Assembly: GCF_036227325.1 (NCBI RefSeq)
Contig: NZ_CP109467.1
Span: 6,200,001 to 6,264,000 of the forward strand
DNA: 64,000 bases
Reading direction: 5' to 3'
From: Streptomyces sp. NBC_01465
GTDB taxonomy: Bacteria > Actinomycetota > Actinomycetes > Streptomycetales > Streptomycetaceae
The position numbers were made by a program, and so were the translations under genes. Numbering within the stretch: the stretch's first letter is position 1; every line of letters starts with the position of its first letter. This document shows, in pieces, positions 25,070-52,616 of the stretch. The notes beneath the pieces were generated by a model, which did no database searches, had not been told where the DNA came from, and saw nothing but the letters and a program-made list of their open reading frames with translations.

Positions 25070-25606
25070 ATGACTGAACGAAGATCGCTTCTGCGGCGCA
25101 TACGGATCTGGCTGGTCGTCTTCATCGTGTGCCTGGTCCTGAGTGGGCTGACCGCCTTCCCGCTGGTGCACGAACTGCACTGGACCGAGAGCCTGTTGAA
25201 GTCCACGCAGGTGGTCCCCGACCACTTCCCGGCGCTGATGGAGTGGATCCACCGGGTGCGCGTGGGGCTGGACGAAACCGACGCGAAGTACCCCTTTGTC
25301 CTGTACGGCACGGACTGGCTTGCTTTCGCCCACCTCGTCATCGCGGTGGCCTTCTACGGCCCCTACCGCGACCCCGTACGCAACATCTGGGTGATCGAGT
25401 TCGGGATGATCGCCTGCGCCGGAATCATCCCGCTCGCCCTGATCTGCGGTCCGGTCCGCGGGATCCCCTTCTGGTGGTCGGTGATCGACATGTCCTTCGG
25501 GATCTTCGGGGTCGTCCCGCTCTATGTCGTACGACGGAAGATCAAGCAGCTGGAGGCGCTGACGGCGGCATCGGCCGCTTCGGTCACTTCAGCGCTCCCA
25601 GCGTGA
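25070..25606 (+). CDS. Four-pass membrane protein, unknown function
   Basis: 178 residues with four predicted membrane helices (IWLVVFIVCLVLSGLTAF; WLAFAHLVIAVAFYG; IEFGMIACAGIIPLALI; FWWSVIDMSFGIFGVVPL) and a basic C-terminal tail. I do not recognise a named family. ATG 25070 (MTERRSLLRR) is chosen because it begins a normal positive-inside N-terminus; upstream in-frame residues look non-coding. Its 3' end overlaps the convergent sugar permease gene by 23 nt. Confidence 0.7.
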   Translation: MTERRSLLRRIRIWLVVFIVCLVLSGLTAFPLVHELHWTESLLKSTQVVPDHFPALMEWIHRVRVGLDETDAKYPFVLYGTDWLAFAHLVIAVAFYGPYRDPVRNIWVIEFGMIACAGIIPLALICGPVRGIPFWWSVIDMSFGIFGVVPLYVVRRKIKQLEALTAASAASVTSALPA

Positions 25607-26501
25607 CCCCCGAGCGCCAGTAGCGGCGCATCGCCGTCATCATCACGGCCATCGGCACGATCGAGAGCAGCGCGCCCGTCAGGACCAGGCTCGTCAGGTC
25701 GACGCCGGACTCCAGGCGCTTGCCGGACCAGTTGTAGAGGCCCAGGTTGAGCGTCCAGTTCTCCTCGCCGCGCAGCACGGTCAGCGGCAGGAAGAAGGCG
25801 TTCCAGGTGTTCACGAAGGCGAGCAGGAAGACGGTCGCGCCGCCCGTCGTCATCATCCGCAGGACGATGGAGAAGAAGATCCGCAGCTCGCCCGCGCCGT
25901 CGATGCGGGCCGCCTCCAGGATCTCGTACGGGATCGTCGCCTCGGTGTAGACCTTGGCGAGGTACACGCTGAACGGATTGATCAGGCAGGGGACGAGCAT
26001 CGCCCACGGGGTGTCGACCATGCCGATCGCCGAGAAGAGGAGATAGAGGGGGAGCGTGAGGAGGGCGATGGGGATCAGGAAGGAGCCCACCACGCACGCG
26101 AAGACGGCGTTGCGGCCGGGGAAGTCGAAGCGGGCCAGGCCGTAGCCGGTGGCCAGGGCGATCAGGGTGCCGCCGAGCGAGCCGACTCCTGCGTAGAGGA
26201 GTGAGTTGGCCGTCCAGCGCAGGAAGATGCCGTTCTCGTACGTGAAGAGCTGACGCAGGTTCGCCCAGAGGTGCATGCCGGAGAACCAGAGGCCGTTGCT
26301 CTGGTAGAGCCCGGTGCGGTCCTTGGTGGCGGCGACGAGCAGCCACCACACCGGGAAGAGGCTGTACGCGCAGGCCAGCACCAGGCCGAGCAGTACGAAG
26401 CGCTGGGCGCCGCGGCCCCGGGCCCGGGCGTCGGGGCGGGCGAGCGTGCGCACGGCGGCTGTGCGGCGGTGCTGCTCGGTTTCGGGGTCGGTCATCACCA
26501 T
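25584..26501 (-). CDS. Carbohydrate ABC transporter permease, MalG type
   Basis: 305 residues, six membrane segments. The EAA loop EILEAARIDGAGELRIFFSI and FVNTWNAFFLPL are typical of CUT1-type inner permeases. The start overlaps the stop of the upstream permease by one base (TGATGG), so the two are coupled. It is the third gene of the binding protein-MalF-MalG set of the saccharolytic locus. The ATPase is not in the cluster; Streptomyces CUT1 systems often share the MsiK ATPase encoded elsewhere. Confidence 0.9.
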   Translation of the reverse strand: MVMTDPETEQHRRTAAVRTLARPDARARGRGAQRFVLLGLVLACAYSLFPVWWLLVAATKDRTGLYQSNGLWFSGMHLWANLRQLFTYENGIFLRWTANSLLYAGVGSLGGTLIALATGYGLARFDFPGRNAVFACVVGSFLIPIALLTLPLYLLFSAIGMVDTPWAMLVPCLINPFSVYLAKVYTEATIPYEILEAARIDGAGELRIFFSIVLRMMTTGGATVFLLAFVNTWNAFFLPLTVLRGEENWTLNLGLYNWSGKRLESGVDLTSLVLTGALLSIVPMAVMMTAMRRYWRSGVTLGALK

Positions 26502-27385
26502 CAGTCGGTCTCCTTCGAGGTCAGGCGGTAGAAGAGGAAGGAGGCGATGCCGAGGATGAGGGCGAGGAGGACGGAGAGCGCGGCCGCGTAGTGGTAGTTG
26601 TTGGCGTTGAACGCCTGGTTGTAGATGACCATGATCGGCGTGAAGGCGTCACTCACGGTCTGCGGGGTGACGTTGCGGAACAGGGCCGGCTCGTTGAAGA
26701 TCTGCAGCATCTGGATGATCGAGAGCAGACCGGTGAGGACGAGCGCGCCGCGTACGTGCGGGATCTTGATGGAGAGGGCGATGCGCTTCTCCGAGGCGCC
26801 GTCGAGGCGGGCTGCCTCGAAGAGCTCGCGGGGTACGGACTGCAGTGCGGCGTAGATGATCACCATGTTGTAGCCGATGCCGTGCCAGGTCAGCAGATTG
26901 CCGATGGACGGCCAGACCATCGAGGGCGCGAAGAAGTCCCACGACGCCCCGAAGAGACGGCCGAGCGAGGTCAGCGGGCCGACGTCGGGGCTGTAGAGGT
27001 TGACCCAGACGACGGCGGCGACCACGCCGGGGATCATGTACGGGACCAGGAGCAGGATGCGGAGCCGGCTTGCCGCCCGGGAGGTCAGCGCGTCCAGGAA
27101 CAGGGCGAGGAGCAGGCTGATCGCGAGCATCACGGGGATCTGGACGCAGGCGAACAGGACCACGCGCAGGACCGAGCCCATGAAGGCCGAATCGGTCAGT
27201 CCCTGCTGGTAGTTGGCGAGACCGGTGAACTTCGTCGTCGCGCCGCCGAGGCCGAGTCCTGACTGCTGCTCGCGGAAGAGCGACTCGTAGACGGCGTAGC
27301 CGATCGGGACCGCGTAGATGAAGAGGAAGCCGAGCTGGAAGGGCACCGTGAAGGCGGCGCCCTTCCAGCGCTGGGAGCGGATCAT
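26501..27385 (-). CDS. Carbohydrate ABC transporter permease, MalF type
   Basis: 294 residues, six membrane segments, EAA loop ELFEAARLDGASEKRIALSI and the VPYMIPGVVAAVVWVNLY segment of CUT1 MalF-type permeases. It lacks the large periplasmic loop of E. coli MalF, as is normal in Gram-positives. It starts 12 nt after the binding-protein stop and overlaps the MalG-type gene by one base. Confidence 0.9.
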   Translation of the reverse strand: MIRSQRWKGAAFTVPFQLGFLFIYAVPIGYAVYESLFREQQSGLGLGGATTKFTGLANYQQGLTDSAFMGSVLRVVLFACVQIPVMLAISLLLALFLDALTSRAASRLRILLLVPYMIPGVVAAVVWVNLYSPDVGPLTSLGRLFGASWDFFAPSMVWPSIGNLLTWHGIGYNMVIIYAALQSVPRELFEAARLDGASEKRIALSIKIPHVRGALVLTGLLSIIQMLQIFNEPALFRNVTPQTVSDAFTPIMVIYNQAFNANNYHYAAALSVLLALILGIASFLFYRLTSKETD

Positions 27386-27397
27386 CGGGTCTGCCCC

Positions 27398-28738
27398 TCA
27401 GCCCTCGACGCTGATGCCGCGGGACTTCAGGTCCTTGACCGTCCACTCCTGCATGTGTGCGAGGAGGTCGGTGACCTTCTGTTCCTTGGAGACGACCTTG
27501 GCCCAGCCGGTGGCCAACTCGGTGAACATCGCGGTCCAGTTGGGGCCGAAGGTCCAGTCGGTGGTGACGGTGGGGAGGCTGTCCGTGACCGTCTTCTTGG
27601 CGGGTTCGTAGTTCGGGCCGAGGAGCTTGGCGGAGATCGCCTTGTCGACGTAGCTCTGGCTGTCGGCGAGGGCGGGCATCACGCCGTTGCCGGTCTCCGG
27701 GTTGGCCATCGTGCCGACGGCGCCGGTGTCGGTGGACATCCAGAGGGCGGCCTCGGCGGCCTGCTTCTGGTTCTTGCACTGCTTGGTGACGAGGGTGACG
27801 CCGCCGCTCTGGTTGGTGCCGGCCGGGGTCTTGGCCGCTTCGCCGGTGAACGTCGGCCAGGGGGACAGGGCCCACTTTCCGTTCGACTTGGTGAAGTTCT
27901 GCACCATGCCGGCCATCTGCCAGGTGGAGATCTGCCGGGTCGCCGTGCCGCCGGTGTCGTAGTTGCGCTGGACGGCGGCGTAGTCGGCGAAGGAGAGCGT
28001 GGAGTCGAGGTCGTTGTCGACGATCTCCTGGATGACCTGGGCGGCCTTGAGGGTGCCGGGGTCCTGGAAGTTCACCTTCCAGGAGTCTCCGTCGATGGCG
28101 TACCAGTGGGCACCGGCCTGCATGGCGAGCACCTCCAGGGTGCTCGGGTCCTCGCCCGCGTAGTTGGTGAGGTGGATGCCGTGCTTCTTGAGCACCTTGC
28201 CGGCGGCTATGAAGTCGTCCCAGGTGGCAGGGGCCTTGAGGCCGTACTTGGTGAAGAGGTCGGTGCGGAGAATCGTGAAGGCCGGGGCCGAACTGGTCGG
28301 GACGCCGTACGACTTGCCCTGGACCTGGGCGCTCGCCCAGGAGCCCGCGTTGAACGTGGACTTGGCGGAGGAGACGTACGGGGTGATGTCGGCCAGGGCG
28401 CCCTGGGAGACCAGTGTCGTCACGTACTCGGCGGTGTTCTGCACCAGACAGGGCGCGTTGCCTGCCTTGACCGCGTTGGCGAGCTGCTTCTGCATCGTCA
28501 ACTGGTCGGTGACCTTGGTGTACTTGAGCCGGATGTCCTTGTGGGCGGCGTTGAACGCCTTGACCACCTCCGGCTGTCCGTTGGCCCAGCCCCAGAAGGG
28601 GAGGGTGACGGGGCCGCCCGATCCCGATGACGCCTTGTCGCCGGAGCCCGATCCGCCGCAGGCGGAGAGCAGTCCGGTCAGGGCGAGGCCGGTTGCCGCG
28701 GCTCGGACGAGCTTGCTCCTGGAACTGGTGAAGTTCAT
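27398..28738 (-). CDS. Carbohydrate ABC transporter substrate-binding lipoprotein
   Basis: 446 residues. A lipoprotein signal ends at LLSACGG (Cys ~26), followed by a Ser/Gly linker and a type 1 extracellular binding domain (VTLPFWGWANGQPEVVKAFN, IVDNDLDSTLSFADYAAVQR, EAALWMSTDTGAVG). I chose ATG 28738 (AAGGA ~10 nt upstream), where the signal begins. First gene of the importer operon. An AACCGGTT operator lies 54 nt upstream of the start, linking it to the LacI regulator. Likely ligand: oligosaccharides released by the secreted enzymes next door. Confidence 0.9.
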   Translation of the reverse strand: MNFTSSRSKLVRAAATGLALTGLLSACGGSGSGDKASSGSGGPVTLPFWGWANGQPEVVKAFNAAHKDIRLKYTKVTDQLTMQKQLANAVKAGNAPCLVQNTAEYVTTLVSQGALADITPYVSSAKSTFNAGSWASAQVQGKSYGVPTSSAPAFTILRTDLFTKYGLKAPATWDDFIAAGKVLKKHGIHLTNYAGEDPSTLEVLAMQAGAHWYAIDGDSWKVNFQDPGTLKAAQVIQEIVDNDLDSTLSFADYAAVQRNYDTGGTATRQISTWQMAGMVQNFTKSNGKWALSPWPTFTGEAAKTPAGTNQSGGVTLVTKQCKNQKQAAEAALWMSTDTGAVGTMANPETGNGVMPALADSQSYVDKAISAKLLGPNYEPAKKTVTDSLPTVTTDWTFGPNWTAMFTELATGWAKVVSKEQKVTDLLAHMQEWTVKDLKSRGISVEG

Positions 28739-28791
28739 CTGACCGTGATCCTTCGGGAGTACTGGCGGGTGGTCAACGCGCAACATATAGA

Positions 28792-28799
28792 AACCGGTT
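28792..28799. promoter_or_regulatory. LacI-type operator 1 (AACCGGTT)
   Basis: The palindrome AACCGGTT sits in TAGAAACCGGTTGGCG. Its left half TAGAAACC is identical to the reverse complement of the right half of operator 4. It lies 54 nt upstream of the importer binding-protein start. Confidence 0.7.
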
Positions 28800-29003
28800 G
28801 GCGTGGACGCTAGGCCCATCAGGGAGTCCCTAGCAAGGGGAGATGACGAAATTGTTTCGCCTGCCGTGAGTCGTTCGGCCTGTCGGACGCCTGGGCGGCG
28901 TTGCAGGTGATGTGCCGCCGGGGGCGCACGGCTTTCGCGTAATGCTGTCCGATCTCTTGACGCGTGCGACGGAACAGGAAGATGCTCTGCCGCATTGCCC
29001 GAC

Positions 29004-29011
29004 AACCGGTT
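29004..29011. promoter_or_regulatory. LacI-type operator 2 (AACCGGTT)
   Basis: CAACCGGTTG (29003-29012) is a perfect 10-bp palindrome 29 nt upstream of the secreted glycosidase start, close enough to block transcription. It shares the core AACCGGTT with three other sites in the locus. Confidence 0.7.
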
Positions 29012-29040
29012 GCTGCCCTCGCCCTCGCAAGGAGCCTTCC

Positions 29041-30573
29041 ATGAGCGTGCCCCAGAACCCCACCCGCCGTAGAACCCTCCAGGCCGCAGGCGCGACCGTC
29101 CTCGCCGCGGGCCTGTCGGGACTCACCGCACGTACCGCCGCCGCCGAGCCGGCCGGCGGCCATCACACCCCCGTACCGAAGCTGGTCACCTACCCCCGCC
29201 CCTCCACCATGCCGACCAACACCAGCTTCAAGGTGCGCGTCCGCTCCGTGCCCGACGGCGAGTGGCAGACCCTCGACATCTGGCGGCCCCAGCTGGAGGA
29301 GATCAACGCCGACACGGGCTCCGGCAAGGTCTACAACTCATCGATGGTGTACTTCGACTTCCGCGGCCCCGTCGAGCTGGAGATCATCTACGTTCCCGGC
29401 GGCACCACCAAGGCCCGCGTACGCCCCGACGCGCTGGGCATCACGCCCGAACTCCTCGGCGACACCATGCGGTTCACCCTCGAGACGCCGAAGGACATTG
29501 TCGTCCAGGTCAACGACCTGGTCTTCGACTGCCTGCACATCATCACCAACCGGGTCGACCCGCACCCGCCGGCCGCCGACGACCCCGACGTCATCTACTT
29601 CGGCCCCGGCGAGCACACCGTCCCCGGCAACGTCCTCACCGTCCCCAGCGGCAAGACCGTCCATCTCGCGGGCGGCGCGGTCCTCAAAGCGCAGGTCTTC
29701 TTCAAGAACGTCGAAAAGGCGGCCCTGACCGGCCACGGCATGCTCAACGCAGGACCCGGCGGAATCCTCTGCGAGGGCAGCAAGAACATCCGCGTACGCG
29801 ACGTCATCATCATGAACCCGAACGGATACGCGGGCACGTTCGGGATGAGCGAGAACGTCCACGTCACCAAGGCCCGCTCCTTCAGCTCGAAGGGCAACGG
29901 CGACGGCTTCGACGTCTTCTCCTCCACCGACATCACCTTCGACGGCTGCTTCATGCGCAACTCCGACGACTGCTTCGCCATCTACTGCCACCGCTGGGAC
30001 TACTACGGCGACACCCGCGACATCACCATCAAGAACTGCACCCTGTGGGCGGACGTCGCGCACCCCATCAACGTGGGCACGCACGGCAACAGCGACAACC
30101 CCGAGACGATCGAGAACCTCGTCATCCAGAACCTCGACATCCTCGACCACCGCGAGCCGCAGCTGAACTACCAGGGCTGCATCGCCCTGAACGTCGGCGA
30201 CTCCAACCTCCTCAAGACCGTCCGGATCGAGGACATCCGGATCGAGGACTTCCGCTGGGGCCAGGTCATCTACATGAAGGTCATGTACAACACGAAGTAC
30301 AACACCTCGGTCGGGCGCGGCATCAGCGACGTCTACGTCAAGAACCTCAGCTACACCGGCACCCACGCCCAGCCGTCGCTGTTCCTCGGCTACGACGCCG
30401 ACCACGCCATCGACGGCGTCACCTTCGAGAACCTCGTCATCAACGGCACGGTCGTCGCCGACACGATGAAGAAGCCCACCTGGTACTACACGACCGACAC
30501 CGTCCAGTGGTACGCCAACGAGCACGTCACCCACCTGAAGTTCCTCACCACCGCCGAGGCGGCCGCACTGTGA
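29041..30573 (+). CDS. Secreted right-handed beta-helix glycoside hydrolase, clan GH-N (GH28/GH49-like)
   Basis: 510 residues. Tat-like signal (RRRTLQAAG, cleavage ~35), an N-terminal beta-sandwich (~60-165, SFKVRVRSVPDGEWQTLDIW through VVQVNDL) as seen in GH49-type enzymes, then a pectin-lyase-like beta-helix. Candidate catalytic acids: Asp288/Asp291 (GNGDGFDV) and Asp309/Asp310 (RNSDDCFAI), with GTHGN (346-350) resembling the GHG motif. The GH28 RIK motif is not evident. It should cut a uronate- or glucan-type backbone outside the cell. AAGGAG at 29029-29034 sets ATG 29041. Its stop overlaps the next GTG by 4 nt. GH28 versus GH49 substrate cannot be decided by eye. Confidence 0.8.
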   Translation: MSVPQNPTRRRTLQAAGATVLAAGLSGLTARTAAAEPAGGHHTPVPKLVTYPRPSTMPTNTSFKVRVRSVPDGEWQTLDIWRPQLEEINADTGSGKVYNSSMVYFDFRGPVELEIIYVPGGTTKARVRPDALGITPELLGDTMRFTLETPKDIVVQVNDLVFDCLHIITNRVDPHPPAADDPDVIYFGPGEHTVPGNVLTVPSGKTVHLAGGAVLKAQVFFKNVEKAALTGHGMLNAGPGGILCEGSKNIRVRDVIIMNPNGYAGTFGMSENVHVTKARSFSSKGNGDGFDVFSSTDITFDGCFMRNSDDCFAIYCHRWDYYGDTRDITIKNCTLWADVAHPINVGTHGNSDNPETIENLVIQNLDILDHREPQLNYQGCIALNVGDSNLLKTVRIEDIRIEDFRWGQVIYMKVMYNTKYNTSVGRGISDVYVKNLSYTGTHAQPSLFLGYDADHAIDGVTFENLVINGTVVADTMKKPTWYYTTDTVQWYANEHVTHLKFLTTAEAAAL

Positions 30574-33500
30574 CACCGCCCCTCGGCCGCCGCGCCCTGC
30601 TCCAGTCCTCCACGGCGCTGCTGCTCGCCGCGGGCACGAACAGCCTGTTCGTGCCCGCGGCGCGGGCCGCCCAACAGGCCGACTCCGAGGGCGAGTTCAC
30701 CTTCTCCCACCCCGGCCTCCTGCACACCGCCGCCGACCTCGCCCGGATGAGGACCGCCGTCGCCGCGCAGGAGTCCCCGGTGTACGACGGCTACCTCGCG
30801 CTCGCCGCCCACGCCCGCTCCTCGGCGGCGTACCCCGTGCAGAACACCGGGCAGATCACCTCCTGGGGCCGCGGCCCCTCCAACTTCATGTCCCAGGCCG
30901 TCGCCGACTCGGCCGCCGCGTACCAGAACGCCCTCATGTGGTGCATCACCGGCGAGCGCGCCCACGCCGACAAAGCCCGCGACCTCCTCAACGCCTGGTC
31001 CGCCTCGCTCACCGCGATCACCGGCGCCGACGGCCCGCTCGGCGCGGGACTCCAGGCGTTCAAGTTCGTCAACGCCGCCGAACTCCTGCGCCACACCGGC
31101 TACGACGGCTGGGCGGACGCCGACGTCGCGCGCTGCGAGGAGTCGTTCCTGCGCGTCTGGTACCCGGCCGTCTCCGGCTACATGCTCTACGCCAACGGCA
31201 ACTGGGACCTCACCGCCGTCCAGACCGTCCTGGCCATCGGCGTCTTCTGCGAACAGCGCACCCTCTTCGAGGACGCCCTGCGCTACGCCGCCGCCGGAGC
31301 GGGCGACGGCAGCGTGCCCCACCGCATCGTCACCGACGCAGGTCAGGGCCAGGAGTCGGGCCGCGACCAGGGCCACGAACAGCTCGCCGTCGGCCTGCTC
31401 ACCGACGCCGCCCAGGTCGCCTGGGCCCAGGGGGTCGACCTCTACGGCCACCTGGACAACAGGATCCTCGCCAACGTCGAGTACGCCGCCCGCTACAACC
31501 TCGGCGGCGACGTCCCCTTCGTCCCCGACCTCGACCGCACCGGCAAGTACATCAAGACCGCCGTCTCCGCGACCTCGCGCGGCTCCATACCGCCGGTCTA
31601 CGAGATGGCCTACGCGCACTACGCCGGAGTCCGCGGACTCGAAGCCCCCGCCACCCGGCAGCTCCTCTTCCGGGGCGCGGACGGCGCCCGTGCCGTCGAG
31701 GGCAGCAACGACGACCTGCCCTCCTTCGGGACGCTGGCCTACGCGGGCGCCGTCCGCGCCCCGGCCGCCCCCACCGCCCCCGCCGGGCTCTCGGCCACCG
31801 GCACCCGCGACGCGGTCACCGTGTCCTGGCTGCCGACTGCCTGGGCGGACACGTACACGGTGTGGCGCGCATCCGACCCCCAAGGGCCGTACGAGCGGCT
31901 GGAGTCGGGCGTCGAGGGGACCTCGTACGCCGACCGCTCGGTGCGCGCGGGCCGCACGTACCACTACACGGTCTCGGCGGTGAACTCCCTCTCGCAGAGC
32001 CCGAGTTCGGCCGTCATCAGTGCCGGTGCGGGTCTCCCCGGGCGCTGGGAATCGCACAACGTCGGCGACGTGCGCCGCGAGGGCGCGGCCCTCTTCGACG
32101 GGGAGCGGTTCGTCCTGGAGGCGGGTGGCGCGGACATCGGGTCCACCTCCGACGCCTTCCGCTTCGTCCATCTGCCGTTGCACGGCGACGGCACCGTCAC
32201 CGCTCGCCTCGTCCAGCCGCTCAGCTCCCAGTACTCCAAGGCCGGAGTCATGATCCGCGGCTCCCTCGCGGCCGGCGCCCCGCACGCCTCGATGCTGATC
32301 CAGGGGCTGCCGCTGCACACCTGGAGCGGAGTGTGGACGGTGCGTTCCGCTCCGTCGGCGGCGACCACGGGCAGTGGTTCCACACCCGTACCGCCCGCGC
32401 AGCAGCAGGCGATCACCACCGCCGCCTCGTTCCCGATCTCCGACCTCGGTACGCTTCCCGGCTCGGCGACCCCGCTGAGCGCGCCGTACGTCGAAGGCGC
32501 GGGCGACGGCTACCGGCTGCGCGCCCCGTACTGGGTGCGCGTCACCCGCAAGGGATCCCGGTTCACCGGGGAGATCTCGCCGGACGGCGTGTACTGGACC
32601 CAAGTGGGCTCCACCGAGGTCGAGTTGGGCCGCTCGGTGTACGCGGGACTCGCCTTCACCTCCTGCCTGGGCGTCGATCAGGCCTACGCGGAGACGGGCA
32701 CGGCCGCCTTCGACAATGTCATCGTCACCGGCTGGAGCGCGGGCCGCCCCTTCCGTACCGCCTCCGATCTGACCGCCGTCACCGGCGCCGACGCCGTCGA
32801 ACTGGCCTGGACCGACCCCGACCCCTCCGCCCGCTACACCCTGCTCCGCGCCACCCGCCCGGACGGCCCGTACCGCACGCTCGCCACCGGAATCGGCCCG
32901 GTCGGCCTCGGTACGCGGCTGCGGTACGCGGACGCCACCGGGACCCCCGGGGAGACGTACCACTACACCGTCGCGAAGACCAACACCGTTGGCAGCGGCC
33001 CGCGTTCACGGTCCGCGGCCGCGCCCATGCCGACGCCCGCCGCACCCCTCCTCACCTCGCACGGCACCGCGTACGCGAACACCGGCGACGCCTTCCGCCA
33101 TCAGCTGCGCGCCTCCCACGAGCCCGTACGCTTCACCGCGAGCGGCCTGCCGCGCGGTCTGCGGTTGAACCGGCGCACCGGACTGATCTCCGGGACACCC
33201 GCCGAGACCGGAACCTTCCCCGTCACCACCACGGCCGGCAACGCGGCCGGTGACGCCACCGGCGCGCTCGCCCTCACCGTTGGTGCGCCGCCACCCGCCC
33301 CCTGGACGTACGGCGACCTCGGCGACCCGGCCGCCGACGAGCGGACGCTCGGCACGCTCGGCGTCGTCGCGATACGGACGCCGGGATCGACCTCGTACGA
33401 GAACGGCACGTTCACCGTGCGCGGGGCGGGCGTCGATCTGAACACCAACGGCCAGGCGATGACAGGGCAGTTCGTACGCCGCCCCGTCACCGGCGACTGC

Positions 33501-33902
33501 GAGCTCACCGCCCGCCTCGTCTCCCGTACCGGCGCACCCGCCGACCGGGTCGGCCTGCTGATGGCCAAGTCCCTGTCCCCGTTCGACCAGGCGGCCGGCG
33601 TCATCGTCGCGGGCGGAACCGCCGCTCAGCTCATGCTGCGTACCAAAGTCGCGGGTGCATCCGCCTTCACGGGCAGCGCCACGGTAGCGGCCCCCTGCCT
33701 CCTGCGGCTGCGGCGCACCGGGGCGGCCTTCACCGCGTACGTCTCCGCCGACGACGGCGCCACCTGGACCCAGGTCGCCGCAGGTGAGATCCCCGGCTTC
33801 GGAGACGCCCCCTACGACGTGGGCCTGGTGGTCTGCTCCCGCAGCCCCCTGACCCTCGCCACCACCGTGTTCGGCGAGGTGACCGTCACCCCGCTCCCGT
33901 AA
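30570..33902 (+). CDS. Large secreted alginate-lyase-superfamily protein with Fn3, LamG/DUF1349-like and Ig modules
   Basis: 1110 residues. Signal peptide with RRALLQSS (to ~33), then an alpha/alpha-toroid alginate-lyase-like domain (~45-395) with NGNWDLTAVQ (209-218) and the repeated family motif QESGRDQGHE (261-270). A Fn3 domain follows (~400-485), a jelly-roll LamG/DUF1349-like domain (~490-720), a second Fn3 (~730-830), an Ig/He_PIG-like domain (~835-910) and a second DUF1349-like domain to the end. It should be an extracellular polysaccharide lyase with binding modules. GTG 30570 is in a GTGA overlap with the glycosidase gene. The catalytic domain is paralogous to the next gene. Confidence 0.8.
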   Translation: MTPPLGRRALLQSSTALLLAAGTNSLFVPAARAAQQADSEGEFTFSHPGLLHTAADLARMRTAVAAQESPVYDGYLALAAHARSSAAYPVQNTGQITSWGRGPSNFMSQAVADSAAAYQNALMWCITGERAHADKARDLLNAWSASLTAITGADGPLGAGLQAFKFVNAAELLRHTGYDGWADADVARCEESFLRVWYPAVSGYMLYANGNWDLTAVQTVLAIGVFCEQRTLFEDALRYAAAGAGDGSVPHRIVTDAGQGQESGRDQGHEQLAVGLLTDAAQVAWAQGVDLYGHLDNRILANVEYAARYNLGGDVPFVPDLDRTGKYIKTAVSATSRGSIPPVYEMAYAHYAGVRGLEAPATRQLLFRGADGARAVEGSNDDLPSFGTLAYAGAVRAPAAPTAPAGLSATGTRDAVTVSWLPTAWADTYTVWRASDPQGPYERLESGVEGTSYADRSVRAGRTYHYTVSAVNSLSQSPSSAVISAGAGLPGRWESHNVGDVRREGAALFDGERFVLEAGGADIGSTSDAFRFVHLPLHGDGTVTARLVQPLSSQYSKAGVMIRGSLAAGAPHASMLIQGLPLHTWSGVWTVRSAPSAATTGSGSTPVPPAQQQAITTAASFPISDLGTLPGSATPLSAPYVEGAGDGYRLRAPYWVRVTRKGSRFTGEISPDGVYWTQVGSTEVELGRSVYAGLAFTSCLGVDQAYAETGTAAFDNVIVTGWSAGRPFRTASDLTAVTGADAVELAWTDPDPSARYTLLRATRPDGPYRTLATGIGPVGLGTRLRYADATGTPGETYHYTVAKTNTVGSGPRSRSAAAPMPTPAAPLLTSHGTAYANTGDAFRHQLRASHEPVRFTASGLPRGLRLNRRTGLISGTPAETGTFPVTTTAGNAAGDATGALALTVGAPPPAPWTYGDLGDPAADERTLGTLGVVAIRTPGSTSYENGTFTVRGAGVDLNTNGQAMTGQFVRRPVTGDCELTARLVSRTGAPADRVGLLMAKSLSPFDQAAGVIVAGGTAAQLMLRTKVAGASAFTGSATVAAPCLLRLRRTGAAFTAYVSADDGATWTQVAAGEIPGFGDAPYDVGLVVCSRSPLTLATTVFGEVTVTPLP

Positions 33903-33927
33903 TCCCCCCACCGAAGGAGCCCGGTCC

Positions 33928-35187
33928 ATGAATCAACCGTCCCCCCACCCCACCCACCGCAAAACCGTGCTGAGCCGCCGCGGTCTGCTGAAGACCGCCG
34001 GCGGTCTCACCGCCGCACTCGCGGCGGGCTCGGCCACCACCGCGCTGACCTCCGCCACCGCCGACGCGGCACCCACCACCTGGACCCACCCCGGCATGCT
34101 GCACAACGCGGGCGACATCAACCGGGCGAAGGTGCGCGTCGCCGCGGGCACCGAGCCCTGGCTGTCCGGCTGGAACGTCCTCACCGCCAACGCGCACTCC
34201 GCGTCCACCTGGACCCCCAGCCCCAAGGAGACCGTGATCCGCGGTGGCACCGGAGAGAACTACGCCTCGCTCTACAACGACATCGCCGCCGCGTACCAGA
34301 ACGCGCTGCGCTGGAAGGTCGCGGGCACCGAGGCCAACGCCCAGTGCGCCGCCACGATCCTCAACGCCTGGTCCTCGACGCTGACTTCGGTCACCGGCAA
34401 CGCCGACCGTTTCCTCGCCGCAGGCATCTACGGCTGGGAGTTCGCCAACGCCGCCGAGCTGATGCGCGACTACGACGGCTTCGACCTCGCCGCCTTCCAG
34501 ACGATGATGACCAACGTCTTCTACCCGCTCAACAACCAGTTCCTCACCGGCCACAACGACGCCTGCATCACCAACTACTGGGCCAACTGGGACCTGTGCA
34601 ACATGGCGTCGATCATGGCCATCGGCATCCTCTGCGAGGACAGCGCCAAGTACGACCAGGCCGTCACCTACTTCAAGTCCGGTGCGGGCAACGGCGCGCT
34701 GGCCAAGGCCGTCCCCTTCCTCTACACCGACGACGACGACGGCTACGCACTCGGCCAGTGGCAGGAGTCGGGCCGCGACCAGGGCCACACCATGATGGGC
34801 ATGGGCCAGATCGGCGCGATCTGCGAGATGGCCTGGAACCAGGGCGACGACCTCTACTCCTACGACGACCGCCGCGTCATGAAGGCCGCCCAGTACGTCG
34901 CCAAGTACAACCTCGGAAACGACGTCCCCTACACCACCTACAGCTGGGGCACCGGACAGAACTGCGCCTACAGCGAGCAGACCGTCATCTCGTCCGCCTC
35001 GCGCGGCCAGGTGCGCCCGGTCTGGGCGCTGCTGCACTTCCACTACAACCGGCGGCTGAACCTGGACGACAAGTACATCTCGCAGATGTACTACTCGCTC
35101 GCCCCCGAGGGCGGCGGCGGCAACTACGGCTCCACCAGCGGTGGTTACGACCAGCTCGGCTTCGGCACGCTGATGTACGCGAAGTAG
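33928..35187 (+). CDS. Secreted single-domain alginate-lyase-superfamily protein
   Basis: 419 residues. Tat signal SRRGLLKTAGG with cleavage near residue 48. The whole mature chain corresponds to the N-terminal domain of the preceding protein: WANWDLCNMASIMAIGILCE matches its NGNWDLTAVQTVLAIGVFCE, and QESGRDQGHT (279-288), LNAWSSTLTSVTG and KYNLGNDVPY also match. AAGGAG (33914-33919) lies 8 nt before ATG 33928. It starts 25 nt after the large lyase, so the three secreted enzymes form one operon. Substrate unknown; alginate is only the family name. Confidence 0.8.
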   Translation: MNQPSPHPTHRKTVLSRRGLLKTAGGLTAALAAGSATTALTSATADAAPTTWTHPGMLHNAGDINRAKVRVAAGTEPWLSGWNVLTANAHSASTWTPSPKETVIRGGTGENYASLYNDIAAAYQNALRWKVAGTEANAQCAATILNAWSSTLTSVTGNADRFLAAGIYGWEFANAAELMRDYDGFDLAAFQTMMTNVFYPLNNQFLTGHNDACITNYWANWDLCNMASIMAIGILCEDSAKYDQAVTYFKSGAGNGALAKAVPFLYTDDDDGYALGQWQESGRDQGHTMMGMGQIGAICEMAWNQGDDLYSYDDRRVMKAAQYVAKYNLGNDVPYTTYSWGTGQNCAYSEQTVISSASRGQVRPVWALLHFHYNRRLNLDDKYISQMYYSLAPEGGGGNYGSTSGGYDQLGFGTLMYAK

Positions 35188-35196
35188 CCGGTCGTC

Positions 35197-36255
35197 TCAC
35201 CCGGTGAAGCGCGCCGTGGACTCCCGTACGACCACATGCGTGCCGAGCAGCAGATGCTCCGCCCCGCCGTCCGCATCCCGGTTCAGGGCTGTCCGGACGG
35301 CGAGGCGGCCCAGCTCCTCGTACGGGACGTGCACCGTGGTCAGCGGCGGGTGCAGATCGCGGGTGAAGGCGATGTCGTCGTACCCGGCGAGCGACACGTC
35401 ACCGGGGACCGAGAGCCCCGCCTCGTGCAGCGCGGTGAGCGCGCCCGCCGCCACCATGTCCGTCGTCGCGAACACCGCGCTGAACTCCAGCCCGCGCTCG
35501 ATGGCTTGGCGCATCAGCCGGTGGCCGCTGTCGCGGGTGAAGTCGCCGGGCAGCCGCAGTGCCGGGTCGGGCTCGATGCCCACGGCCCGGTGCGCGGAGG
35601 TGTAGCCGCGCTCGCGGCCCTGCAGGGTGGTGTTGTCGGGGGCGCCGCCGAGGAGCAGGATGCGGCGGTGGCCCTGGCCGAGGAGGTACGCGCACAGGGC
35701 GTGGGCGCCGCCCTCGTTGTCGTACTCGATGACGGTCGCGGGCACCTTCTCCGCCAGCGGGGGGCGCCCGCACAGTACGAGCCGGGAGCCGGAGGAGTGC
35801 AGGGCGTGCGCGGTGCGGGCCGTGCGCTCCTCGTAGCTCGGGGTGGAGTGCGCGCCGCCTACCAGGATCACGGCCGCGGCCCGCTGGGCGCGCATCATCT
35901 CCGTGAAGGCGAGCTGCTCGTCGGCATCCCCGTCGGTGCTGCACACCAGGCAGAGGTGGCCCATCTTGCGGGCCTCGCGCTCCACACCCTGTGCCATCTG
36001 CGCGAACGAGGGCCCGGTGATGTCGTCGAGGACGAAGGCCAGCGTCGGAGTGCCCGCGCCCGCCACCGCCTTCGCGCGCGCGTCCGCCACGTAGTCGAGG
36101 GCGTCCACCGCCCGCATGACGCGGGAGCGGGTCGCCGCGCTCACCGGGTACTCGCCGCCGAGCACCCGCGACACGGTGGACGCGGACACCCCGGCGCGGG
36201 CTGCGACGTCGCGGATCGTGTGCCGGCCCTGAACGTCGGCGGTCTTCCTGGTCAT
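35197..36255 (-). CDS. LacI-family transcriptional repressor
   Basis: 352 residues. N-terminal HTH TIRDVAARAGVSASTVSRVL with hinge helix, then a periplasmic-binding-protein-like sugar sensor (LAFVLDDITGPSFAQMAQGV, GHRRILLLGGAP, SLAGYDDIAFT). I chose ATG 36255 because AAGGA is ~9 nt upstream; a GTG at 36273 has no ribosome site. Convergent with the lyase operon and divergent from the dehydrogenase. An AACCGGTT site lies 46 nt upstream of its start, so it probably represses itself and the whole locus, released by a sugar or sugar-acid inducer. Confidence 0.92.
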   Translation of the reverse strand: MTRKTADVQGRHTIRDVAARAGVSASTVSRVLGGEYPVSAATRSRVMRAVDALDYVADARAKAVAGAGTPTLAFVLDDITGPSFAQMAQGVEREARKMGHLCLVCSTDGDADEQLAFTEMMRAQRAAAVILVGGAHSTPSYEERTARTAHALHSSGSRLVLCGRPPLAEKVPATVIEYDNEGGAHALCAYLLGQGHRRILLLGGAPDNTTLQGRERGYTSAHRAVGIEPDPALRLPGDFTRDSGHRLMRQAIERGLEFSAVFATTDMVAAGALTALHEAGLSVPGDVSLAGYDDIAFTRDLHPPLTTVHVPYEELGRLAVRTALNRDADGGAEHLLLGTHVVVRESTARFTG

Positions 36256-36300
36256 CCGCGCTGATCCTTCCACCCCACGGGCGGTGCCACAAGGCGCAGC

Positions 36301-36308
36301 AACCGGTT
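36301..36308. promoter_or_regulatory. LacI-type operator 3 (AACCGGTT)
   Basis: AACCGGTT within AGCAACCGGTTCCCG, upstream of the minus-strand LacI gene. It fits autoregulation. Confidence 0.68.
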
Positions 36309-36448
36309 CCCGAAACGGGAGGCTAGCAGTGCCCTGCAGCCGGGTGGAAGAGCAGTGCGGTCAGGACCTCCCGGAAGCGTGTCCGCAGCCGCAACTATCG
36401 CCCCTCTCCCGTTCGTTGACCGCGCCGGGTGAGGGGTTCTAGCGTAGG

Positions 36449-36456
36449 AACCGGTT
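36449..36456. promoter_or_regulatory. LacI-type operator 4 (AACCGGTT), best palindrome
   Basis: TAGGAACCGGTTTCTA (36445-36460) pairs at seven of eight positions about its centre, the most complete of the four sites. It lies 41 nt upstream of the TTG start of the hydroxyacid dehydrogenase. Confidence 0.7.
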
Positions 36457-36496
36457 TCTATACCTGCTGTGCGAGCCGACCCGGAAGGCCCCTCCC

Positions 36497-37528
36497 TTGT
36501 CCGATCCCCAGTCCGGCGACCGCCCGAAAGCGCTGTTCGCCATGGGCGCCGCCACCCTGCCGTACGCCTTCCCGCCCCCGGTGATGGCCAGGCTGCGTAC
36601 GGCCGTCGACATCGACCCCGGTCTGCTGGCGGAGAACTTCACGGACCCCCGGGTGCGCGAGGAGCTGGCCCGCACCGAGATCCTCGTCACCGGCTGGGGC
36701 TGCCCGCCGCTCGACGACTCCGTACTCGCCGCAGCGCCCCGGCTCCGCGCGGTGCTGCATGCGGCAGGATCGGTCAAGACCCTGATCACCGAGGCCTGTT
36801 GGCGGCGCGGGCTGCTGGTCTCCTCGGCCGCGGCGGCCAATGCGCTGCCGGTCGCCGAGTACACCCTCGGCATGATTCTCCTCGCGGGGAAGGACCTCTT
36901 CGCCCAGCGCGAGAGCTACCGCACGGCCCGCACGTTCGAACTCGGCGGGATCGTCCCCTCCATCGGCAACTTCGGCCGTCGCATCGGCATCGTCGGCGCC
37001 TCGCGCATCGGCCGCCGCGTCATCGAGCTCCTGCGCCCCTTCGACTTCGAGGTCTCGCTCACCGATCCGTACGTGGACGAGGCGCAGGCCGCGGCGCTCG
37101 GCGTACGACTGCGCGGTCTGTACGGGGCGGACGGGCTGCTCGCCACCAGTGACATCGTCACCGTGCACGCCCCGGAGACCCCGGAGACCCACCGGCTGAT
37201 CGGCCGCCGGGAGCTGGCGCTGATGCCCGACGGGGCGGTCCTGATCAACACCGCACGCGGCAGTCTCGTCGACACCGAGGCGCTGGCCGACGAGGCGCGG
37301 ACGGGCCGTGTCCGCGCGATTCTCGACGTCACCGACCCCGAACCGCTGCCCGCCCTGTCCCCGCTCTACGACCTCCCCGACATCTACCTCACCCCTCATG
37401 TCGCGGGCTCGCAGGGCAATGAGATCGCCCGACTCGGCCTGGCCGTGGCCGCGGAGGCGGAGCGCCTCGCGGCGGGGCTGCCGCTGGCGCACGCCGTCGA
37501 TCACGCGGCCCTGGAGCGGGCCGCGTGA
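36497..37528 (+). CDS. D-isomer-specific 2-hydroxyacid dehydrogenase
   Basis: 343 residues. NAD-binding GIVGASRIGRRV (164-175) and the catalytic triad Arg254 (NTARGSLVD), Glu282 (DPEP) and His301 (TPHVAG) are intact. The family reduces or oxidises 2-keto/2-hydroxy acids. The start is TTG 36497 with GGAAGG (36483-36488) 8 nt upstream; no ATG or GTG fits the family N-terminus. The operator just upstream places it in the LacI regulon, where it could act on a sugar-acid intermediate such as glyoxylate, hydroxypyruvate or a deoxyuronate product. Substrate not determined. Confidence 0.87.
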   Translation: MSDPQSGDRPKALFAMGAATLPYAFPPPVMARLRTAVDIDPGLLAENFTDPRVREELARTEILVTGWGCPPLDDSVLAAAPRLRAVLHAAGSVKTLITEACWRRGLLVSSAAAANALPVAEYTLGMILLAGKDLFAQRESYRTARTFELGGIVPSIGNFGRRIGIVGASRIGRRVIELLRPFDFEVSLTDPYVDEAQAAALGVRLRGLYGADGLLATSDIVTVHAPETPETHRLIGRRELALMPDGAVLINTARGSLVDTEALADEARTGRVRAILDVTDPEPLPALSPLYDLPDIYLTPHVAGSQGNEIARLGLAVAAEAERLAAGLPLAHAVDHAALERAA

Positions 37529-37537
37529 TCGGGGGGC

Positions 37538-38314
37538 TCAGGTGACGGAGAACCCGCCGTCCGCGAAGAGCGTCTGCCCGGTGACGTAGCAGGCGGCGTC
37601 GCTCGCCAGGAACACCGCCGCTCCGCCGAAGTCCTCGGGCTCGCCGTTGCGGCCGGTCATCGTGCGGGCCGCCAGGGCCTTCGGGCGGTCCGGGTCGGAG
37701 AAGACCGGCTCCGTGAGCGGGGTGTGGACGAAGCCGGGGCCGATCGCGTTGACGCAGACGCCGTGCCGCGACCAGGCCTCCGCCTGGGAGCGGGTCAGCG
37801 CGCAGATCGCCGCCTTGGAGACGCCGTACGCGCCACTGTTGCCGAAGGCGCGGATCGACTGCTGCGAGGCCAGGTGGATGATCCGGCCCCAGCCGCGCGC
37901 CGCCATGGCCGGACCGAACCGCTGGCCCAGGAGGAACGGGGCGGTGAGGTTGACCTCCAGGGTGGCGTCCCAGACGTCCTCGCCGAGGTCGTCGAGCGGC
38001 GGCCGGGGGTTGATGCCCGCCGAGGTGACGAGGATGTCGGGGGCGCCGAAGCGCGACTCCATCTCGTCGGCGGCGGCGTGGAGTTCGGTGCGCGAGCCGA
38101 GGTCGGCGGTGATCCAGGAGACGTCGGCGGGCTTCAGCTCGTCCGCGGCCGCCCGGAGCCGGTCCTCGTTGCGGGCCAGGAGGACCACCCGGGCGCCGGC
38201 CCCCGCCAGCGCCCGTGCGATGCCCAGGCCGATGCCCGAGCTCCCGCCGGTGATCAGTGCCGTACGGCCGTCGAGGCCGAACGTGCGCTCCAGGAAAGTC
38301 GATCGTGTGTCCAT
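37538..38314 (-). CDS. Short-chain dehydrogenase/reductase, gluconate 5-dehydrogenase / KduD-like
   Basis: 258 residues. Cofactor motif TGGSSGIG, NAG-like SAGIN, catalytic Ser in ASQQS, and YGVSK, all normal for classical SDRs. VTSAGINPRPPLDDL and GRIIHLASQQSIRAFGNSGA resemble gluconate 5-dehydrogenase and 2-deoxy-D-gluconate/KduD-type enzymes that work on uronate products. Convergent with the hydroxyacid dehydrogenase (9 nt between stops). No operator seen directly upstream. Confidence 0.84.
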   Translation of the reverse strand: MDTRSTFLERTFGLDGRTALITGGSSGIGLGIARALAGAGARVVLLARNEDRLRAAADELKPADVSWITADLGSRTELHAAADEMESRFGAPDILVTSAGINPRPPLDDLGEDVWDATLEVNLTAPFLLGQRFGPAMAARGWGRIIHLASQQSIRAFGNSGAYGVSKAAICALTRSQAEAWSRHGVCVNAIGPGFVHTPLTEPVFSDPDRPKALAARTMTGRNGEPEDFGGAAVFLASDAACYVTGQTLFADGGFSVT

Positions 38315-38326
38315 GAACGCAGCATG

Positions 38327-39493
38327 TCAGGAGGGGTCCGGGGCTCCGAAGGCGGCCACCACGATCTTCATGGCGGTCGCGTTCATGCCGTCGCCCTTCG
38401 CGTCCGTCCCGTTCACGCTGTAGACGAGGGTCGTCGAGAGGTCGCGGGTCGCCGCGATCGCCGCGAGATAGCCGTAGCGGCTGCCCGTCTTGCCCCAGAC
38501 CTGGCGCCCGCCGAGGTTCAGCGCGGAGAGCCCGGCGCTGTACTCGGCCGTGCCCTTCTTCAGCTTCGGCAGCGTGAACATCTCCTCCAGCACCGGCCCG
38601 CGCACCACCTGCCCGCGGAACAGGGCCTTGGTGAAGTGCTCCAGATCGGCGGTGGTGGAGATGAGGTCGCCCGCGGCCCAGGACCCCGTCTGACCCCAGA
38701 CCGTCACATCACGCAGCTCGGTCGTGCCGTCGGCGTGCTCGTACGCCTGGTAGCCGTGGTTGTGCGGGCCGCTGATGCCGGTGTCGGCGCCGGGGAGCGA
38801 AGTGCCGTGCAGGCCGAGGGGGTTGATGATGCGGCGGGTGACCTGGTTCTCGTACGAGTCGTGGGTGATCCGCTCGATGAGCAGGCCCGCCACGGTGTAG
38901 CCGATGTTGTCGTAACTCTGCTGGGTGCCGGGCCTGAAGAGCGGCTTCTGGGACGTCGCGGAGGTCACCTGCTGCTGCGGCGAGTAGACGTCGAAGCGGT
39001 GCTGGTACACCTCCTCGGGCGTGCCGTCCACGCCGCCGGACGACGGCAGACCGCTGGTGTGGTTGAGCAACTGCCGTACGGTGACGTGCTTGTACGCCGC
39101 CGGGATCAGGTCCGGGAGGTAGTCGCGGACCGGGCGGTCCAGGGAGAGCCGGTGCTCGGAGGCGAGCTGGAGGACCACGGCGGCGGTGAAGACCTTGGTG
39201 ACGGAGCCGGCGCGGAAGCGCCCGTTCGGGTCGGCGGGCTTCCCGGAGGCGAGGTCGTGTACGCCTGAACTCCCGCGCCAGCTCCCGTCTCTGCCTCCGA
39301 TCCGTACGAGCGCGGCCGTCGCGTCCGCGCTCGGGAGCCCGGCGATCGCCGCGCGCAGGGCCGCCGCGTCCGGAGCGGTGTGCTGCGCGGAGACCGCTGC
39401 GGGGGAGTCGGCGAGGGCGGGCGCGGCCGTGCCGGCCGCCAGGCCGAGGACGACGGTGGCGGCGAGCAGGACATTGCGGGTGCGGGCGTTCAT
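38327..39493 (-). CDS. Secreted serine hydrolase, beta-lactamase/D-Ala-D-Ala carboxypeptidase (class C fold)
   Basis: 388 residues. Signal peptide 1-~28 (ending ALA). Active-site SVTK (AGSVTKVFTAAV), the YDN motif (YDNIGYTVAG) and KTG (GKTGSRYGY) are all present, as in class C penicillin-binding enzymes and carboxypeptidases. It should act on peptidoglycan peptides or small esters outside the cell. ATG 39493 is chosen from the signal peptide. It is not obviously part of the sugar locus although the SDR gene follows 12 nt downstream. Confidence 0.85.
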   Translation of the reverse strand: MNARTRNVLLAATVVLGLAAGTAAPALADSPAAVSAQHTAPDAAALRAAIAGLPSADATAALVRIGGRDGSWRGSSGVHDLASGKPADPNGRFRAGSVTKVFTAAVVLQLASEHRLSLDRPVRDYLPDLIPAAYKHVTVRQLLNHTSGLPSSGGVDGTPEEVYQHRFDVYSPQQQVTSATSQKPLFRPGTQQSYDNIGYTVAGLLIERITHDSYENQVTRRIINPLGLHGTSLPGADTGISGPHNHGYQAYEHADGTTELRDVTVWGQTGSWAAGDLISTTADLEHFTKALFRGQVVRGPVLEEMFTLPKLKKGTAEYSAGLSALNLGGRQVWGKTGSRYGYLAAIAATRDLSTTLVYSVNGTDAKGDGMNATAMKIVVAAFGAPDPS

Positions 39494-39565
39494 CGGTGAC
39501 TCACTCCGGAGGTGGACGGCTGTGGTGCGGACATGAGCCATCCTGCTGAGGCCGGAGCGCTTGCG

Positions 39566-39600
39566 GATCATCCGTGGGGTCGGCCCCGGCCCGGATGATC
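39566..39600 (-). terminator. Hairpin after the GDPD gene
   Basis: GATCATCCG (39566-39574) and CGGATGATC (39592-39600) form a perfect 9-bp stem; the 17-nt loop is itself GC-rich. It lies 15 nt past the stop of the minus-strand GDPD gene and upstream of the hydrolase gene. Confidence 0.65.
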
Positions 39601-50774: not shown

Positions 50775-50819
50775 GTGGCGCGCTCCACCACATCAATCCC
50801 GCCACGTCCGGAGGCAGTT

Positions 50820-52616
50820 GTGGATCGTCGAAGACTTCTGGCTGTGCTCGCCTCGGCCTCCCTGGCCGCAAGCGGAATCGTTGTTCTGACGCAGACGGCG
50901 CAGGCCGCGGATGCGGATCAGTTGCGTAACGGAGGGTTCGAGGCCGGCCTGGACGGCTGGAGCTGTACGAACGGATCCGCGGTGAACTCGCCCGTCCGCA
51001 GCGGCACTTCGGCGCTCAGGGCGACACCCGCGGGCAGCGACTACGCCCAGTGCGCGCAGACCGTCGCGGTCCAGCCCAACTCGAAGTACACGCTGAGCGG
51101 CTGGGTGCAGGGGAGCTACGTCTACCTCGGCGCGACCGGGACGGGGACGACGGACGTGTCGACCTGGACGCAGTCGGCGACCGGCTGGCAGCAGCTGACC
51201 ACGAGCTTCACGACGGGCGCCTCGACGACGTCGGTACAGGTCTACACCCATGGCTGGTACGGAACCGCCGCGTACAGCGCCGACGACCTCACCCTGGTCG
51301 GCCCCGGCGGCGCACCCGCGCAGATACCGGCGGCGCCGACGGGCCTGAGGGCGGGCACGGTCACCTCCACGACGGTGGACCTCTCGTGGGGCGCGGCGAG
51401 CGGCGCGACGTCGTACGCGATCTACCGCAACGGCACCAAGGTCTCGACGGTGACGGGCACTTCGGCCACGGTGAGCGGCCTGACGGCCTCGACGGCGTAC
51501 AGCTTCCAGGTGACGGCGTCCAACGCGGCGGGCGAGTCCCCGAAGTCGGTGACGGTCACCGCCACCACAACGGCGGGCGGCGGCACGGGAACAGGAACGC
51601 TCCCCGCGCACGCCCTGGTCGGCTACCTCCACTCCAGCTTCGCGAACGGCTCCGGCTACACGCGCATGGCCGACGTACCCGACTCCTGGGACGTGATCGA
51701 CCTGGCCTTCGGCGAGCCGACCTCGGTGACGTCGGGCGACATCCGCTTCAGCCTCTGCCCGGTGAGCGAGTGCCCGACGGTGGAGTCGCTCGCGGACTTC
51801 AAGGCGGCGATCAAGGCGAAGCAGGCGGCGGGCAAGAAGGTCCTGATCTCGATAGGCGGCCAGAACGGCCAGGTCCAGCTGACGACAACGGCGGCCAGGG
51901 ACACCTTCGTGTCGTCCGTCTCGAAAATCATCGACGACTACGGCCTGGACGGCCTGGACATCGACTTCGAGGGCCACTCGCTCTCGCTCAACACGGGCGA
52001 CACGGACTTCCGGAACCCGACCACCCCGGTGGTGGTGAATCTGATCGCGGCGCTGAAGACCCTGAAGGCGAAGTACGGCTCGAAGTTCGTGCTGACGATG
52101 GCCCCCGAGACGTTCTTCGTCCAACTCGGCTACCAGTACTACGGATCGGGCCCCTGGGGCGGCCAGGACCCGCGCGCGGGCGCGTACCTCCCGGTGATCA
52201 ACGCCCTGCGCGATGACCTCACCCTGCTCCACGTCCAGGACTACAACTCGGGCTCGATCATGGGCCTGGACAACCAGTACCACTCGATGGGCGGCGCCGA
52301 CTTCCACATTGCGATGACGGACATGCTGCTGACGGGCTTCCCGGTGGCGGGCGACACGACGAAGGTCTTCCAGCCGCTGCGCCCGGACCAGGTGGCGATA
52401 GGCCTCCCGGCGTCGACGAACGCGGGCAACGGCTACACGTCGCCGGCGGAGGTCACGAAGACCCTGGACTGCCTGACGAAGAAGACGAACTGCGGGACGT
52501 ACACCACGCACGGGACGTGGCCCGCGCTGCGCGGCCTGATGACGTGGTCGATCAACTGGGACCGCTTCAACAACCAGGAGTTCTCGAAGAACTTCGACGC
52601 GTACAACTGGAGCTAG
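50820..52616 (+). CDS. Secreted family 18 chitinase with CBM and Fn3 modules
   Basis: 598 residues. Signal with DRRRLLAVLA (cleavage ~35 at AQAA), a carbohydrate-binding beta-sandwich (~40-165, LRNGGFEAGLDGWSC), a Fn3 domain (~170-260), a Thr/Gly linker, and a GH18 barrel with DGLDIDFE (377-384; Glu384 is the acid/base). It hydrolyses chitin outside the cell. GTG 50820 is set by GGAGG (50810-50814); the in-frame GTG 50775 lies in the promoter. A dre-like operator predicts induction when amino sugars relieve DasR. Confidence 0.93.
   Translation: MDRRRLLAVLASASLAASGIVVLTQTAQAADADQLRNGGFEAGLDGWSCTNGSAVNSPVRSGTSALRATPAGSDYAQCAQTVAVQPNSKYTLSGWVQGSYVYLGATGTGTTDVSTWTQSATGWQQLTTSFTTGASTTSVQVYTHGWYGTAAYSADDLTLVGPGGAPAQIPAAPTGLRAGTVTSTTVDLSWGAASGATSYAIYRNGTKVSTVTGTSATVSGLTASTAYSFQVTASNAAGESPKSVTVTATTTAGGGTGTGTLPAHALVGYLHSSFANGSGYTRMADVPDSWDVIDLAFGEPTSVTSGDIRFSLCPVSECPTVESLADFKAAIKAKQAAGKKVLISIGGQNGQVQLTTTAARDTFVSSVSKIIDDYGLDGLDIDFEGHSLSLNTGDTDFRNPTTPVVVNLIAALKTLKAKYGSKFVLTMAPETFFVQLGYQYYGSGPWGGQDPRAGAYLPVINALRDDLTLLHVQDYNSGSIMGLDNQYHSMGGADFHIAMTDMLLTGFPVAGDTTKVFQPLRPDQVAIGLPASTNAGNGYTSPAEVTKTLDCLTKKTNCGTYTTHGTWPALRGLMTWSINWDRFNNQEFSKNFDAYNWS

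Follow-up and report, generated by a model that had tools for sequence, protein, structure and literature searches.

Gram-positive polysaccharide utilisation loci that pair a LacI-family repressor with a CUT1 importer and carbohydrate-active enzymes (CAZymes) combine local repression with an importer that lacks an ATPase gene of its own, depolymerases that are secreted, and an intracellular oxidoreductase. Here, we describe a locus of Streptomyces sp. NBC_01465 that resembles these systems in its repressor, ATPase-less importer, depolymerases and oxidoreductase. The locus lies within a window of 64,000 nucleotides (positions 6200001-6264000 on one 9.14-Mb contig), which is the whole stretch of DNA that was analysed. 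It is reasonably likely to be a Gram-positive polysaccharide utilisation locus that serves, under one local repressor, the use of an acidic and probably arabinose-decorated plant glycan. None of the open-access titles and abstracts listed gives an account of a GH28-like enzyme of GH49 architecture together with two PF05426 toroid proteins, one of them modular; this is weak evidence, and agrees with the initial annotation of this DNA, which did not recognise the set as described.

A further point of reference is PtxS, the LacI repressor of 2-ketogluconate use in Pseudomonas, which represses the kgu operon and has a 14-bp site, TGAAACCGGTTTCA, that contains the palindrome AACCGGTT (PMC11678583). 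The Streptomyces locus has the same AACCGGTT core, but its genes and phylum are different.

A palindrome shared by four promoters

The block contains four transcription units, namely a solute-binding lipoprotein (SBP) with two permeases (SBP-permA-permB), a clan GH-N enzyme with two toroid proteins (GH-N-ALY1-ALY2), lacI, and a D-2-hydroxyacid dehydrogenase (2HADH), with one copy of AACCGGTT each:

25584..26501, minus strand, CUT1 permease B (permB; MalG/UgpE-like), PF00528 at 44.1 bits
26501..27385, minus strand, CUT1 permease A (permA; MalF/UgpA-like), PF00528 at 47.5 bits
27398..28738, minus strand, SBP, 446 aa, PF01547 at 79.9 bits, LTGLLSAC lipobox-like signal (by eye)
28792..28799, predicted LacI-type operator AACCGGTT, 53 bp before the SBP start, promoter position conserved
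29004..29011, predicted LacI-type operator AACCGGTT, 29 bp before the GH-N start, promoter position conserved
29041..30573, plus strand, GH-N enzyme, 510 aa, predicted secreted, GH28-like sequence, GH49-like N-terminal beta-sandwich and beta-helix, twin-arginine-like signal (by eye)
30570..33902, plus strand, ALY1, 1110 aa, predicted secreted, PF05426 toroid with He_PIG, DUF1349 and fn3-like accessory modules
33928..35187, plus strand, ALY2, 419 aa, predicted secreted, PF05426 toroid
35197..36273 (start possibly 36255), minus strand, LacI-family repressor, PF00356 and PF13377
36301..36308, predicted LacI-type operator AACCGGTT, 27 or 45 bp before the possible lacI starts
36449..36456, predicted LacI-type operator AACCGGTT, 40 bp before the 2HADH start, conserved
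36497..37528, plus strand, 2HADH, TTG start, PF02826 at 149.5 bits

The palindrome was first spotted by reading the intergenic DNA of the block. The window holds five copies against 0.37 expected, a number that none of 100 shuffles reached; the fifth copy lies at 58042, far from the block. A 12-base version with three mismatches allowed occurs at chance level (17 versus 16.25 expected), so the signal is carried by the exact 8-base core. Genome-wide, there are 68 copies of AACCGGTT versus 21 of a reversed control pattern.

Named genomes contain at least 80 loci with an ALY2 homologue, of which the first 36 (L077-L112) were counted, and AACCGGTT again stands upstream of importer, 2HADH, lacI and GH-N genes in these orthologous loci. 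For comparison, every one of the 96 palindromic 8-mers containing four G/C was tallied in the matching promoters of 34 loci (the 36 minus the short fragments L080 and L102). AACCGGTT gave 77 promoter sites in 32 of the 34 loci, compared with three for the best of the 95 other palindromes. Across the orthologous loci it has 109 sites in 673,332 bases, 77 of them within 39,452 promoter bases. Because related strains are not independent, this 34-locus pattern represents conservation and not 34 separate events. The lacI promoters of L077-L112 alone hold 20 sites, and lacI would presumably be autoregulated through the site in its own promoter.

On account of this conserved operator common to the promoters, together with synteny, the block looks like one local LacI regulon. 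That the genes form a single regulon had been proposed in the initial annotation; once a dehydrogenase discussed below is removed, the proposal is strongly supported, and the synteny comparison it called for finds the core gene set conserved as a block. Two observations weigh against this reading. Sixteen copies of AACCGGTT lie inside genes of orthologous loci, many in ALY2 (five loci), so some copies are not operators; 11 others are unplaced. The 2HADH is just 55-61% identical to its syntenic counterparts, versus more than 70% for LacI.

Two genes directly beyond 2HADH fall outside the set:

37538-38314, minus strand, short-chain dehydrogenase/reductase (SDR), outside the regulon
38327-39571, beta-lactamase-like gene, bystander beside the SDR

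The initial annotation had counted the SDR among the set as KduD-like, and we reject it as a KduD on score, operator and synteny. It reaches 183.1 bits against the TIGR01832 equivalog, below the cut-off of 338.85; a scan of the window finds no AACCGGTT at it or at the beta-lactamase-like gene; and among the 36 orthologous loci the SDR is matched in one and the beta-lactamase-like gene in none. The remainder of the listed gene set (importer, GH-N enzyme, two PF05426 toroids, LacI and 2HADH) was borne out by Pfam. The presence of these two bystanders right next door would suit a chance assembly of neighbours with no common regulon, which is nonetheless highly improbable, as the conserved operator common to all four promoters already contradicts it.

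Outside the window, 52 of the 63 AACCGGTT sites were inspected (48 plus four). Among the 48, 22 are inside called genes, eight are in one repeated 20-mer, four precede another LacI gene (L202), and the remaining 14 show no sugar gene before or between frames, as judged by the first residues of those frames. A wider regulon in this genome was considered and rejected: with the L202 LacI gene apart, no sugar-utilisation promoter was recognised among the 52 sites, so the regulon looks local. At L202:1372-1661 (G000:C1 about 7215871-7216160), four CGAACCGGTTCG sites stand upstream of this other LacI gene, and may mark a further LacI regulon whose core is almost the same. The 20-mer, AATATCAACCGGTTGTCCAT, is found in eight genome stretches (L168, L169, L173, L179, L185, L189, L196 and L198) and is perhaps a mobile or rRNA-linked repeat.

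Conservation and possible exchange within the cassette

Within the genus, we sampled 121 genomes, including that of NBC_01465 itself, from a larger group. A relative of ALY2 is found in 69 of them at E<=1e-20 and in 21 at 72% identity or more. Neighbourhoods were examined in 19 of the 20 other genomes at this identity, leaving out the fragmentary G001 contig, and 17 of the 19 have the GH28-like gene, ALY1 and ALY2 together. As exceptions, L057 is without ALY1, L059 is without both the GH28-like gene and ALY1, and in L051 ALY1 is matched in pieces. Among the 36 orthologous loci, 31 keep the order GH28-ALY1-ALY2, 22 have LacI at more than 70% identity, 24 have 2HADH and 23 have a carboxylesterase. 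A second importer is present in many relatives; its binding protein (SBP2) occurs in 26 of the 36 loci and the SBP type of the window in six, while both types are matched in six of the 19 neighbourhoods (L042, L043, L045, L051, L055 and L056). Eight of the 19 have two LacI genes. As the loci reach at most 10 kb past ALY2, the figures for distant partners are minimum values. L081, L097 and L049 share the layout of the window, in which the importer directly faces GH28-ALY1-ALY2. The other 44 loci (L113-L156) mostly hold ALY2 homologues without GH28-ALY1. The occurrence of the cassette in many Streptomyces species implies that a substantial share of the genus may feed on a single glycan that has gone unrecognised.

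Within the window, permA and permB overlap by one base, and in relatives their orthologues are 78-86% and 88-90% identical, respectively, with permB adjoining SBP and permA. The SBP start was set at the ATG of MNFTSSRSK (28738), and a start-like stretch is also found in L043. No importer ATPase gene lies within the block, so the ATPase must be encoded elsewhere. ALY1 begins at a GTG that shares four bases with the GH-N stop, and 25 bases separate ALY2 from ALY1, from which GH-N, ALY1 and ALY2 look like one operon. Each of the three N-termini has a twin arginine ahead of a hydrophobic stretch (by eye). For 2HADH, none of 21 listed NCBIfam models reached its cut-off, and the protein is presumably an intracellular member of the regulon.

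The GH-N enzyme resembles GH28 polygalacturonases in several respects. It matches PF00295 at 48.5 bits, above the cut-off of 22.9; the D-x20-DD motif (D289, D310 and D311 in model numbering) is invariant in 47/47; and the top PDB match of its profile is exopolygalacturonase 3jur (E 5.2e-6). The spacing of the motif we take to follow GH28 and not GH49. Unlike GH28 polygalacturonases, the enzyme has an additional N-terminal beta-sandwich that aligns to GH49, and it matches isopullulanase and dextranase structurally over its whole length (45-504/505), which is the architecture of GH49, with 10-19% identity in the structural rows. Pfam includes GH49 models, but, in contrast to GH49 dextranase and isopullulanase, the enzyme matches none of them, and PF00295 and PF13229 are its only matches at E<=0.001.

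Over 32 loci, the GH28 protein is 52-83% identical to that of the window, and ALY1 is 69-75% identical in 31 and 58% in one. Seventeen strain pairs share ALY1 at 85% identity or more, and in four of them GH28 identity does not exceed 60%; for L083 and L099, the identities are 0.895 for ALY1, 0.912 for ALY2 and 0.595 for GH28. This suggests exchange of the GH-N gene, as a specificity enzyme, within a stable cassette. The suggestion is weakened by rank correlations that are low for all pairs (GH28-ALY1 0.14, GH28-ALY2 0.37, ALY1-ALY2 0.31). A clean split of GH28 into two types was discarded, as the groups were imposed by the script and identity within them falls to 50%.

Toroid proteins and the probable substrate

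ALY1 and ALY2 match PF05426 at 42-48 bits and, in structural comparison, have the (alpha/alpha) toroid fold of PL5 and PL38. Identity in the structural rows is 9-17%, and 11-13% to BoPL38 and A1-III. Profile searches of the PDB reach 3nfv alone (E 0.0047 for profile A1 and 0.54 for profile A2), while the ALY2 sequence by itself gave no lyase and only unrelated PDB matches. The family is large, with 4377 proteins at E<=0.001 among 8000 candidates scored. Conserved residues are N220-W221-D222 and E280-R283-D284-H287 (ALY2 numbering). In weak profile alignments, H287 is aligned with a Tyr of 3nfv, and N220-W221 was set against N-H in a hand alignment by pattern. The catalytic residues reported for BoPL38 are H243 and Y298 (PMC13169297). 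Compared with PL38 and PL5 (BoPL38, A1-III), the ALY proteins have conserved N-W-D and E-R-D-H sets, whose correspondence to H243 and Y298 is tentative. The conserved residues could deviate from the catalytic pair of PL38, and ALY1 and ALY2 are putative lyases. We think that the usual name of the family, "alginate lyase", is misleading.

The substrate is probably an acidic, plant-type polysaccharide. The initial annotation had linked such enzyme sets to pectin, alginate or related uronate glycans; its regulon stands without the SDR, and partner genes point away from alginate, towards arabinose-containing plant glycans. Specifically, some relatives and paralogous cassettes add GH43, GH127, GH51 and carboxylesterase genes (Pfam) and a GH2-like gene (by eye), and in Chitinophaga (L153) a GH51 homologue directly follows the ALY2 homologue. 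These arabinose-type partners make alginate less plausible than a pectic or arabinogalactan glycan that bears arabinose. Two findings weaken this reading. Arabinose-active genes occur in just five of the 36 orthologous loci (GH43 in three, GH127 in one, GH51 in one) and are absent from the block in the window, and the usual route for unsaturated uronates is not visible in the genome. Its one match to PF04962 (KduI/IolB family) adjoins an IolD-like frame (by eye), so the gene is probably IolB and was rejected as KduI; its only GH88/GH105-family match is at 7.37 Mb, 1.1 Mb from the block and outside the regulon. With arabinose partners rare and no KduI/GH88-type route nearby, the substrate is a ranked guess, with pectic glycans first and arabinogalactan second.

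A pectic glycan of rhamnogalacturonan type is the foremost candidate, and one we hold without firm conviction. The GH-N enzyme would cut galacturonyl linkages and the toroids would cleave at uronates; in relatives, GH43, GH51, GH127 and GH2 enzymes would strip arabinan and galactan side chains and the carboxylesterase would remove esters. The invariant D-x20-DD motif (47/47), the exopolygalacturonase as top PDB match of the GH-N profile and the partner enzymes of some relatives all fit this assignment, although the whole-length architecture of GH-N is that of GH49, the KduI-like gene is limited to a probable IolB and GH88/GH105 lies outside the regulon.

A type II arabinogalactan capped with glucuronate (GlcA), in protein or gum, is a less likely substrate. 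The toroids would act at glucuronate and the other enzymes would remove L-arabinose and galactose. The toroid family PL38 includes two glucuronan lyases (PMC13027841). A paralogous cassette at L116 joins two GH51 genes and a GH2-like gene to homologues of ALY2 and GH28, and L107 and L118 have the same without GH2. However, no GH16, GH35 or GH39 was found among ten proteins scanned in or beside the block, and we know of no clan GH-N enzyme that acts on arabinogalactan.

A substrate in line with the Pfam name, alginate or glucuronan, is decidedly improbable. The structural rows are 9-17% identical, the family-conserved W221 and H287 may stand in for the His/Tyr pair, a GH-N enzyme and arabinosidase partners fit poorly with this substrate, and a second alginate-lyase family is absent among the ten proteins scanned.

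For the favoured acidic, arabinose-decorated plant glycan, LacI would bind the AACCGGTT sites and silence the set until released by an imported oligosaccharide or a catabolite of it. GH-N, ALY1 and ALY2 would be exported via their twin-arginine-like signals, with the accessory domains holding ALY1 on the polymer, and would jointly depolymerise a probably pectic or arabinogalactan-type glycan. The SBP/permA/permB importer, energised by an ATPase from elsewhere, would then take up the oligosaccharides, and 2HADH would reduce a 2-keto (uronate-derived) acid. The common AACCGGTT site makes the regulon testable with one promoter reporter and many glycans. More speculatively, ALY1 and ALY2 could belong to a family of toroid enzymes, lyases or otherwise, that has a distinct catalytic set (N-W-D ... 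E-x-x-R-D-x-x-H) and, together with a hydrolase bridging GH28 and GH49, degrades an arabinose-bearing uronate glycan new to utilisation loci, an exchangeable GH-N slot tuning the cassette to glycan variants.

Related genes in other settings

Homologues of ALY2 with 56-58% identity occur in Bacteroidota (L140, L151, L153 and L155; Olivibacter, Niastella, Chitinophaga and Mucilaginibacter), near SusC/SusD-like frames or, in some, hybrid two-component proteins (by eye), and inter-phylum transfer is possible. In other Streptomyces (L066, L117 and L122-L126), an ALY2 paralogue lies near a 54-57% homologue of the beta-lactamase-like gene of the window, followed in L066, L117, L125 and L126 by an adenosine-deaminase region homologue. 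Given these neighbours, toroid genes may have occupied this chromosomal site on more than one occasion.

A protein of about 1500 aa (L068:8291-12847) is encoded in the neighbourhood of ALY2 homologues from Nonomuraea, Glycomyces and certain Streptomyces, with homologues at 54-76% identity in L120, L121, L128, L134, L137 and L142 and at 28-38% in L127, L138 and L152. It has no Pfam or NCBIfam match, and its PDB matches with E below 1e-4 are fn3 or CBM6-entry chains, all past residue 900. Its first 900 residues may form an uncharacterised carbohydrate-active domain. Elsewhere in the window, and outside the regulon, the protein at 50775-52616 has CBM4/9, fn3 and GH18 matches and is a probable chitinase.

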